This document shows, piece by piece, positions 27,631 through 30,608 of a stretch of 64,000 nt of DNA. The number at the start of each line of letters is the position of its first letter. Position 1 is the stretch's first letter. A model generated the notes under the pieces. That model saw only the letters and a list, made by a program, of their open reading frames with translations, did no database searches and was not told where the DNA came from. The position numbers and the translations under genes were made by a program. Source of the DNA: Pleurocapsales cyanobacterium LEGE 06147 (GTDB lineage Bacteria; Cyanobacteriota; Cyanobacteriia; Cyanobacteriales; Xenococcaceae); contig JADEWQ010000011.1 of NCBI GenBank assembly GCA_015207585.1, forward strand, positions 1-64,000, given 5' to 3'.

Positions 27631-27693
27631 CATTTTTCTTCCAAGAGAAAACCAGTTGGCTTATTGCAACGATTGAGGTAAGGAATTGTAAGG

Positions 27694-27738
27694 GAAATGG
27701 GAGAAGAAAGTAATTTCTTCTCCCATTTCTCTGTATTT
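27694..27738 (+). terminator. Rho-independent terminator after hspA
   Basis: AAATGGGAGAAGAAA (27695-27709) pairs perfectly with TTTCTTCTCCCATTT (27714-27728) around a GTAA loop, followed by a T-rich tract with TTTTTT. It is 65 bases after the hspA stop and oriented with it. Confidence 0.88.
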
Positions 27739-27885
27739 GTTTTTTCTTCTAAGGATAGGAAAGATAGTCGTCCGTCGCTTTCCGTATAGGGAGGAAAACC
27801 GTAACTTACACTACCTTGACGGTATTTACAAATTTTTGTTACATTAATTCATACTTAGAAATAAAACTTATAGGAGATAGGTAAG

Positions 27886-28119
27886 ATTACTATTCTTCTC
27901 ATAGCCGTATTTATAATTGGTTGGGCTGCTGCCGCTATTTTGGGAACTCAAGCTTATTTTCTCGGCGAACAAACCAAACCCATTCACGAACGTAACTTAA
28001 AATCTCAATCATTTGAACAATTAGCAAAAGCCATTACTGGCAAAGAAACTAATCACGCTGAAAGAATTCCCGCTTACGCAATGGACACTTATGCTAGTCA
28101 AACTCTTCCCAACGGATAA
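27886..28119 (+). CDS. psb35: Psb35-like photosystem II assembly protein, apparent ATT start
   Basis: The frame encodes about 77 residues: a hydrophobic N-terminal helix (ILLIAVFIIGWAAAAILG), then TQAYFLGEQTKPIHERN, SQSFEQLAKAITGKE and RIPAYAMDTYASQTLPNG. This pattern matches, from memory, the small one-helix thylakoid protein Psb35 (Ssl2148 in Synechocystis), linked to PSII assembly and high-light-inducible proteins. There is no ATG, GTG or TTG before residue 19, inside the membrane helix. A ribosome binding site GGAG (27873-27876) sits nine bases before ATT at 27886, so ATT is the likely start. Alternatively the original ATG mutated to AAG at 27883. The rest of the frame is clean. It lies between hspA and ho1. 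Confidence 0.72.
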   Translation: MTILLIAVFIIGWAAAAILGTQAYFLGEQTKPIHERNLKSQSFEQLAKAITGKETNHAERIPAYAMDTYASQTLPNG

Positions 28120-28124
28120 TATCG

Positions 28125-28235
28125 CAGGAGTCAGGGGTCAGTTATCAGTTATCAGGCAAAAATCAGAAGTCAGGAGTCAGAAAGACCTTCGGTAGTCGCT
28201 ATGGACCCTTCGGGAGCGCGTACAGAAGTATGATT
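28125..28235 (+). repeat. Degenerate GTCAG-type short repeats and GC-rich palindrome
   Basis: From 28128 the sequence cycles through AGTCAGG/GTCAGTTATCAG units, typical degenerate heptamer repeats. A block with CCTTCGG..CCCTTCGGGAGCGCG follows (28182-28221). It is non-coding and lies in the 3' region between the psb35-like gene and a terminator. Confidence 0.55.
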
Positions 28236-28496: not shown

Positions 28497-29216
28497 TTAT
28501 TGTTCGGCAGTAGCCAATTCTGTACTACCGGAAACACGACGGCGAGTAAGAGTATTAAACAACATTTGACCAATAGCTTTGATCAAATTTCCTTCCAATT
28601 CTTTGAACATATTCATATTCATGCCAAAAGCCGCGTTTGCTTCATCGACAATTCTTTCGGCTGTTTTTTGGTCGATAGGCAATTCATTCATCCGTTGACG
28701 GTATTCGTTTTTAAAGGCTTTTTCGTCGGTAATATCTTCAAATTCATAAAAAGCTGTACCTTGACCATCGGCGAGATTCATCGCTCTTTGGGAGATTTTT
28801 TTGAGAATTTGTCCTCCCGATAAATCTCCCAGATAGCGAGTATAGGAATGAGCAACCAGCAATTCCGGTTGAGAATCAGCCACTTGTTGAATACGTTCTA
28901 CATAGGCTTTACCCGCTTCGGATAAAGTAACCTCTTCCCGCCAGTTAGAACCGTAGTAAAAATACAAATCTTGTTCTAAACTTTGTTTTCGATTTAACTC
29001 GGGAAAATAAATTTTGGAGACAACAGGATGGTCTTGAAGTTTTTCCATTTCCTCTTCCATCGCCGAATAGACAAAGTAGAGGTTAGCAACCAATTTGCGA
29101 TAAGATTTTTTTTCAACTACGCCTTTAAGAAAGCATTTAACAAAGCCTACATTTTCTGCCATGGTATGGGATTTTTTTGTTCCCTCGCGCAACATCGTGG
29201 CTAAATTTACACTCAT
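28497..29216 (-). CDS. ho1: Heme oxygenase (HO1 type)
   Basis: It cleaves heme to biliverdin IX-alpha, CO and iron using ferredoxin; biliverdin feeds phycocyanobilin synthesis. The 239-residue protein has proximal His17 in LREGTKKSHTMAENVGFVK, the YFVYSAMEEEM segment, the SYTRYLGDLSGGQIL distal helix with the flexible glycines, and ADGQGTAFYEF. Length is normal for cyanobacterial HO1. It is divergent from rpaA across a 650-bp gap and convergent with the psb35-like gene. No pcyA or second copy is in the window. Confidence 0.97.
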   Translation of the reverse strand: MSVNLATMLREGTKKSHTMAENVGFVKCFLKGVVEKKSYRKLVANLYFVYSAMEEEMEKLQDHPVVSKIYFPELNRKQSLEQDLYFYYGSNWREEVTLSEAGKAYVERIQQVADSQPELLVAHSYTRYLGDLSGGQILKKISQRAMNLADGQGTAFYEFEDITDEKAFKNEYRQRMNELPIDQKTAERIVDEANAAFGMNMNMFKELEGNLIKAIGQMLFNTLTRRRVSGSTELATAEQ

Positions 29217-29867
29217 GCTAAATTTCCTGCTTTTACGGTTTACTATGGGTGTATTAATCTTTACAAAAAAGGAAAAATCTGCCTAATTGGGTAGATTAAA
29301 CTGATTTAATGAGAATTTTCATTAAGAATTCTTACAAGAAGAGGCGGGGAAAATTAATAAAACACGATTTTACGGCTTTAAGAGCCTGGTGATTCGTCAA
29401 TCCCTAAATGTTAAATTTGTTTTACATTTATTTATTCCCGATTCATAAAATTGTCTACTGCTTTAGCAAACCTGTTTAGTCAAAATTAGCAAATATTTAC
29501 GTTCTCCTCTACGGCATCATTCCGAACCGAGCGAGACTGGAAAAGGGAGTTTGCTTAGTAGGCTATGCTCTAGGGGAATATTGGCATCCGAATCTAAATG
29601 TAAATAAATTTAAACTCTCACCTTTGTGAGTTATCGCAGATAAGCTTGCCGAATGGACTTTATCTATGAAGATTATCTTTAATTAAAATTTAAATAAAGT
29701 TCTGAGCTTATATCTATTTACTAAATTAATCATCGAATCGATCAATGTTAGTCAACAGATACCAATATAATTAAAATTCGTGCTTATAATCAGTACAGGA
29801 TTCTTTATTTATCCAAAAACTTCTTATCCTAAATTTACAATCTAATAAAAACTATAATTAGGGAGTG
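29217..29867. other. Large divergent intergenic region between ho1 and rpaA
   Basis: About 650 bases without a convincing gene. It should contain the promoters of both ho1 and rpaA and possibly a long rpaA leader. It is AT-rich, with the central part (about 29500-29600) slightly more GC-rich. I see no clear paired regulator sites or strong hairpins. Confidence 0.5.
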
Positions 29868-30608
29868 ATGCCTCGAATACTTGTAATTGACGACGATCCC
29901 ACAATCTCCGAATTAGTCGCAATCAATTTAGAAATGGCTGGCTATGATGTCAATCAAGCAGAAGACGGCATCAAAGGACAAGCTCTAGCCGTACAGCTGC
30001 AGCCAGACCTGATCCTGCTAGACTTAATGCTACCTAAAGTTGATGGTTTTACTGTTTGTCAACGATTGCGTCGAGACGAGCGCACTTCCGATATTCCGAT
30101 TTTGATGTTGACTGCTTTAGGTCAAACCCAAGACAAAGTAGAGGGATTTAACGCTGGTGCCGACGATTATTTGACTAAACCCTTTGAAGTAGAAGAAATG
30201 TTGGCAAGGGTAAGAGCTTTGCTAAGACGAACAGACCGGATTCCTCAGGCAGCTAAACACTCAGAAATTCTTAACTATGGTCCTTTAACTCTGATTCCCG
30301 AGCGATTTGAGGCAATTTGGTTTGAGAAAACGGTCAAGTTAACTCACTTGGAATTCGAATTACTACATTGTCTTTTACAACGTCACGGACAAACTGTCGC
30401 TCCTAGTGAAATCCTTAAGGAGGTATGGGGATACGATCCCGATGATGATATCGAAACTATCCGCGTTCACATTCGACATCTGAGAACCAAGTTAGAGCCA
30501 GATCCTCGCCATCCTCGTTATATTAAAACCGTATATGGTGCAGGTTACTGCTTAGAATTGCCTAGCAACGACCAAGCCATGACAAACACCGACCAAGCGG
30601 CAGTTTAG
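29868..30608 (+). CDS. rpaA: Circadian output response regulator RpaA
   Basis: RpaA is the OmpR-family factor that carries KaiABC timing from the kinase SasA to global transcription. The receiver holds Asp52 ([30 protein letters not shown] in parts), [15 protein letters not shown] and a [22 protein letters not shown] linker. The winged helix shows [44 protein letters not shown] and [13 protein letters not shown]. These match RpaA, not its paralogue RpaB, as I recall both. ATG 29868 directly follows a GTG at 29865; the GGGAG before them serves as ribosome binding site. The C-terminus ends in a short polar tail. Confidence 0.93.

Follow-up and report, generated by a model that had tools for sequence, protein, structure and literature searches.

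Does a small membrane protein gene that has no ATG, GTG or TTG at its 5′-end start at AUU, or is the missing start codon a sign of sequence error or of gene decay? The question is raised by the Pleurocapsales cyanobacterium LEGE 06147, in the window, the whole 64,000-nucleotide stretch analyzed here (contig JADEWQ010000011.1, positions 1 to 64,000).

A psb35-related frame and its locus

On the + strand, a frame of 81 codons is open from an in-frame TAG stop (27871–27873) to TAA (28117–28119). Its translation opens with E I G K I T I L L I A V F I I G W and ends with P N G. As the preliminary description had stated, no ATG, GTG or TTG precedes the membrane helix in the frame 27874–28119; the first canonical codon, TTG 27940, is located within the helix. 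The Shine-Dalgarno site followed by ATT was also found as described: AGGAG (27872–27876), a 9-base spacer and ATT (27886–27888), from which 77 codons can be read. The span first given, 27873–28119, holds for the frame, but not for its listed start, since position 27873 falls within the Shine-Dalgarno site and, at the same time, within the stop codon before the gene. A standard ORF call at this locus yields only a 59-aa fragment starting at TTG 27940, so the truncation expected of gene callers does occur. The features referred to below are as follows.

27886–28119, + strand: psb35-related gene (NF047380) of 77 codons and a TAA stop, in which ATT replaces the start ATG (ORF, homologue and profile searches)
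27886–27888, + strand: ATT in the place of the conserved start codon (codon −19, counted from the GTQ motif), with a putative G-to-T change at 27888 (homologue alignment, tree)
27872–27876, + strand: Shine-Dalgarno site AGGAG (duplex energy equal to the homologue median)
27871–27873, + strand: in-frame stop TAG, the limit for any upstream start (sequence)
27889–27960, + strand: codons of a single hydrophobic helix, TILLIAVFIIGWAAAAILGTQAYF (translation, sequence inspection)
27940–28119, + strand: 59-aa TTG ORF expected from a standard caller, beginning within the helix (ORF list; this TTG is a start in no relative)
27838–27845, + strand: GTTACATT, first half of a putative HLR1-like (RpaB-type) site, found family-wide upstream of the psb35-related gene (leader alignment)
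27848–27855, + strand: TTCATACT, putative degenerate second HLR1 half, mostly TTTACATA in relatives (leader alignment)
27872–27899, + strand: possible hairpin, with AGGAG paired with UCUUCU and AUU at the loop; not significant, z = −1.49 (fold prediction)
28497–29216, − strand: heme oxygenase (HO1), convergent neighbour, which also adjoins the gene in most family members (ORF list, locus comparison)

The frame matched the NCBIfam model NF047380, "photosystem II protein, Psb35-related", over positions 2–75 of 75 with 136.1 bits (curated cut-off 80, E = 3.6e-40), and a tblastn search of 60 relatives found orthologues in 43, with 52–76% identity in nearly all cases; the frame is therefore not a chance one. 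No Pfam family matched the protein, no significant relative was found among solved structures, and Rfam gave no match above its gathering score at the locus. The protein shares with NF047380 the full-length match, one N-terminal helix, the GTQAYF.GEQ.KPIHERN motif and the HO1 neighbour, and all 30 residues that are invariant in 21 relatives are kept. It differs in its start codon: every other readable member examined has ATG at the helix N-terminus, where the window gene has ATT. Membership stands nonetheless, because the ATG is a trait of the gene start, outside the protein model.

True Psb35 (NF047378), the CP47-module assembly factor, is a different matter. The window protein resembles that model weakly and over the helix alone (residues 4–26), scoring 12 bits against a cut-off of 40, and two separate genes elsewhere in the same genome (contigs C233 and C217) score well above this cut-off. 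The earlier identification was thus right in recognizing a small conserved gene for a photosystem II-type one-helix membrane protein, but the name psb35 has to give way to psb35-related. From the NF047380 match, the orthologues and the HO1 adjacency, the window gene is a genuine, single-copy positional orthologue of the cyanobacterial psb35-related gene.

Other features were noted around the gene. A strong inverted repeat at 27691–27732, with 19-nt arms of 95% complementarity and a loop of 4 nt, lies between the Hsp20 and psb35-related genes and is probably the Hsp20 terminator. Short direct repeats, TCAGTTATCAG and GTCAGGAGTCAG, of a type common between cyanobacterial genes, follow the gene at 28130–28180. 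Just past HO1, an OmpR-type response regulator (29865–30608, + strand), whose frame opens GTG-ATG, presumably resembles the circadian regulator RpaA.

The position and rarity of the lost start

Homologues aligned on the GTQAYF motif gave 95 distinct places, made up of the window, one place that is N-masked at its 5′-end and 93 readable ones. All 93 readable homologues have ATG, at codon −18, −19, −20 or −21. Four genera of the window's own family (g8, g3, g4 and g6) start at −19, exactly at ATT 27886, and in this register ITILLIAVF of the window aligns with MTTLLIAVF or MLTILVSVF. Genera g2 and g5 start at −18. If the helix is taken to contain an insertion of one codon, ATG-ACT-ATT of the near genus g2 also lines up with the window's ATT-ACT-ATT. 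In a tree of HO1 and infC, the window genome branches near the family base, between g2/g5 and the −19 group; support for this placement is moderate. With ATG in all readable homologues and ATG in register with ATT, the simplest history would be a single G-to-T change at 27888, turning an ancestral ATG into ATT. Relatives with an ATG at a clearly different position, the outcome that would have spoken against the preliminary description, were not seen; ATT 27886 lies exactly at the conserved start position.

Two other origins were weighed. A change of ATG to AAG at 27883, the alternative suggested at the outset, was rejected, because codon −20, to which it corresponds, serves as the start in none of the window's family members. 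Loss of an ATG at −18, the g2/g5 register, was considered since g2 reads ATT-ATG-ACT-ATT, and was dropped because ITILLIAVF fits −19 and the g2 ATG-ACT-ATT aligns once the helix insertion is allowed.

An order-wide scan of 391 genomes found the motif, regardless of start, in 173 of them, and in 16 places neither codon −19 nor codon −18 ended in G. Thirteen of the 16 have ATG at −20, −21 or −23. At two others, L111 (genome G129) and L120 (G223), the N-terminus of the helix is replaced by unrelated sequence with an in-frame stop nearby, and these copies are apparently 5′-broken psb35-related genes. The window gene is the only otherwise intact one without a canonical start. Its ATT is shared by no relative among the 391 genomes, which include no further member of its genus or species.

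Start codons were also compared between 0.95 Mb of the window genome and 1.2 Mb of the relative G001. Among the 113 orthologues covered, no other lost start was found (two apparent losses proved false on inspection), and the 0.95 Mb held only two frameshift-like cases. The absence of another lost start shows that there is no general relaxation of start codons in this genome; the lost start is a one-off. Published reconstructions cover 61,358 ancestral AUG starts, of which only 1 turned into AUU (Belinky et al., PMC5622118).

The infC gene of the window genome was tried as an AUU control and set aside, as it starts with GTG. In infC of the window genome and its relatives (L127, G000:C243:12162–12662, − strand, and L158–L182), this GTG is conserved, and an ACG invariant in the relatives lies two codons upstream (ACG-CCT-GTG-AGA/ATA); the window genome alone reads AAG-CCT-GTG. 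The ACG is probably not the infC start: in another cyanobacterium (L339), a stop codon precedes this position, which makes GTG the likely one.

Explanations for the ATT

The coding part of the gene looks normal. Its median pN/pS is 0.26 (family range 0.18–0.32), identity to the consensus at codon positions 1, 2 and 3 is 56, 67 and 38 of 73, protein distance relative to HO1 lies within the family range with no rate acceleration, and HO1 synteny is retained. Together with the invariant residues, the pN/pS, codon-position and HO1-relative values indicate that the coding part was alive, and under normal constraint, until very recently. The gene is dispensable, however, because it has no match in 17 of the 60 relatives, including the near-complete same-family members G012 and G013.

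The leader gives a mixed picture. The duplex energy of AGGAG, −7.3 kcal/mol, equals the median of 91 homologues, and comparison with the homologues revealed no stronger, compensating Shine-Dalgarno site. Around the start, the RNA is predicted to fold, if anything, more tightly than in relatives (−10.2 vs. a median of −5.4 kcal/mol), which disfavours initiation, although the fold is not significant against shuffled sequences. About 35–60 bases before the psb35-related start, nearly all family members (leaders L002–L028) carry a conserved GTTACATT-NN-TTTACATA. This element fits a putative RpaB-type HLR1 high-light site (for motif context see PMC6331805). In the window, the first half is intact, but the second half departs from the consensus KTTACAWW at three positions, which makes it the poorest match in the family. 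The window leader departs from relatives at several other positions too. In Moorena (L037, L041 and L046) and at L013, psb35-related genes were observed in two or three tandem copies with similar leaders. The more general result may be that the putative HLR1-type element and the fixed place beside HO1 link the psb35-related family to high-light regulation.

Our favoured explanation, held tentatively and at a little short of an even chance, is that the ATT is real and that the gene is still translated weakly from AUU 27886. The weights attached to this and to the competing explanations rest on rough base rates, not on measurement. Here a single G-to-T change at 27888 would have converted the ancestral ATG into ATT, leaving the Shine-Dalgarno site, the frame, the helix and all invariant residues intact. 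The initiator tRNA would read AUU at 27886 under AGGAG, giving fMet, and the product would be a normal 77-residue one-helix thylakoid protein at a reduced level. The comparisons above show the family, the orthology, the place of the missing ATG, the intact coding constraint and the uniqueness of the case, whereas the correctness of the base, the use of AUU and the lowered expression are inferred. Provided that the T at 27888 is correct, AUU under AGGAG is the only reading predicted to give the full helix with a workable spacing. Several findings weigh against weak translation from AUU: AUG-to-AUU switches are very rare, no stronger Shine-Dalgarno site compensates, the predicted fold is tighter, the second HLR1 half is the most degraded in the family, and the gene is dispensable.

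A one-base sequencing or assembly error at 27888, with the true gene beginning with an ordinary ATG, is possible, if on balance unlikely. The genome is a draft of 244 contigs, none of the 93 other readable homologues has such a start, and a single substitution would explain everything in a gene that is otherwise normal; from general consensus error rates, we roughly estimate that ∼0.02–0.2 start codons per genome would be hit in this way. However, substitution errors in a consensus are rare, the sampled 0.95 Mb yielded just the two frameshift-like cases and, in its 113 orthologues, not one further lost start, and the leader differs from relatives at several other positions, so that the region has diverged anyway. 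If the change is real, it may alternatively have effectively silenced the gene, leaving a pseudogene too young to have gathered stops and frameshifts. We consider this less probable again. It would accord with a dispensable gene, unmatched in G012 and G013 among others, with the replaced 5′-ends in G129 and G223, with the eroded second HLR1 half and with a hairpin that may bury AGGAG. Against it, the frame is open, the invariant residues are kept, pN/pS is not raised and no acceleration is seen, so silencing would have to be very recent; moreover, neither the Shine-Dalgarno site nor the first half of HLR1 is damaged.

Translation from elsewhere is very improbable. TTG 27940 is the first canonical start and the choice of an automatic caller, but it lies inside the helix and serves as a start in no relative. 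The near-cognate codons fare no better: ATA 27877 directly abuts AGGAG (0 bases), which excludes it, ATT 27892 is poorly placed with a spacing of 15 bases, and the family start is at 27886.

Under the favoured explanation, weak translation from AUU 27886, the start would depend on IF3, as start-codon proofreading in general implies. It is improbable that selection has kept AUU as an intrinsic brake, a weak and IF3-sensitive start by which the amount of a photosystem II accessory protein is held down. To our knowledge, such a gene would be the first AUU-initiated photosynthesis gene in cyanobacteria, and a literature search found no natural AUU start for cyanobacteria or photosynthesis genes.

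Comparison with known AUU starts

AUU starts are already known from infC and pcnB of E. coli, where they are shown experimentally according to the work cited in PMC1780047, and from cvfC1 of S. aureus, where expression from non-canonical starts reached roughly 10% of the AUG level (PMC13009471). From these starts, and from the level of about a tenth of AUG in cvfC1, a weak but non-zero dose of normal protein would be expected of the window gene. Because AUU starts are known, this one is confined to a single genome and an error is possible, its novelty and interest are modest. If it is real, gene callers would truncate such genes inside the membrane helix; should it be an error or a null allele, the locus still provides a useful annotation warning.

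As in infC, pcnB and cvfC1, the window gene has ATT (AUU) at the conserved start position behind a properly spaced Shine-Dalgarno site. The AUU of cvfC1 is conserved across staphylococci and follows a strong extended Shine-Dalgarno site (PMC13009471), whereas the candidate AUU start of the window gene occurs in one genome only, with no counterpart among the 391 of the order, and follows an ordinary site. Should the base prove real and AUU be in use, the psb35-related gene of LEGE 06147 would be a lineage-specific addition to the very few natural AUU starts on record.
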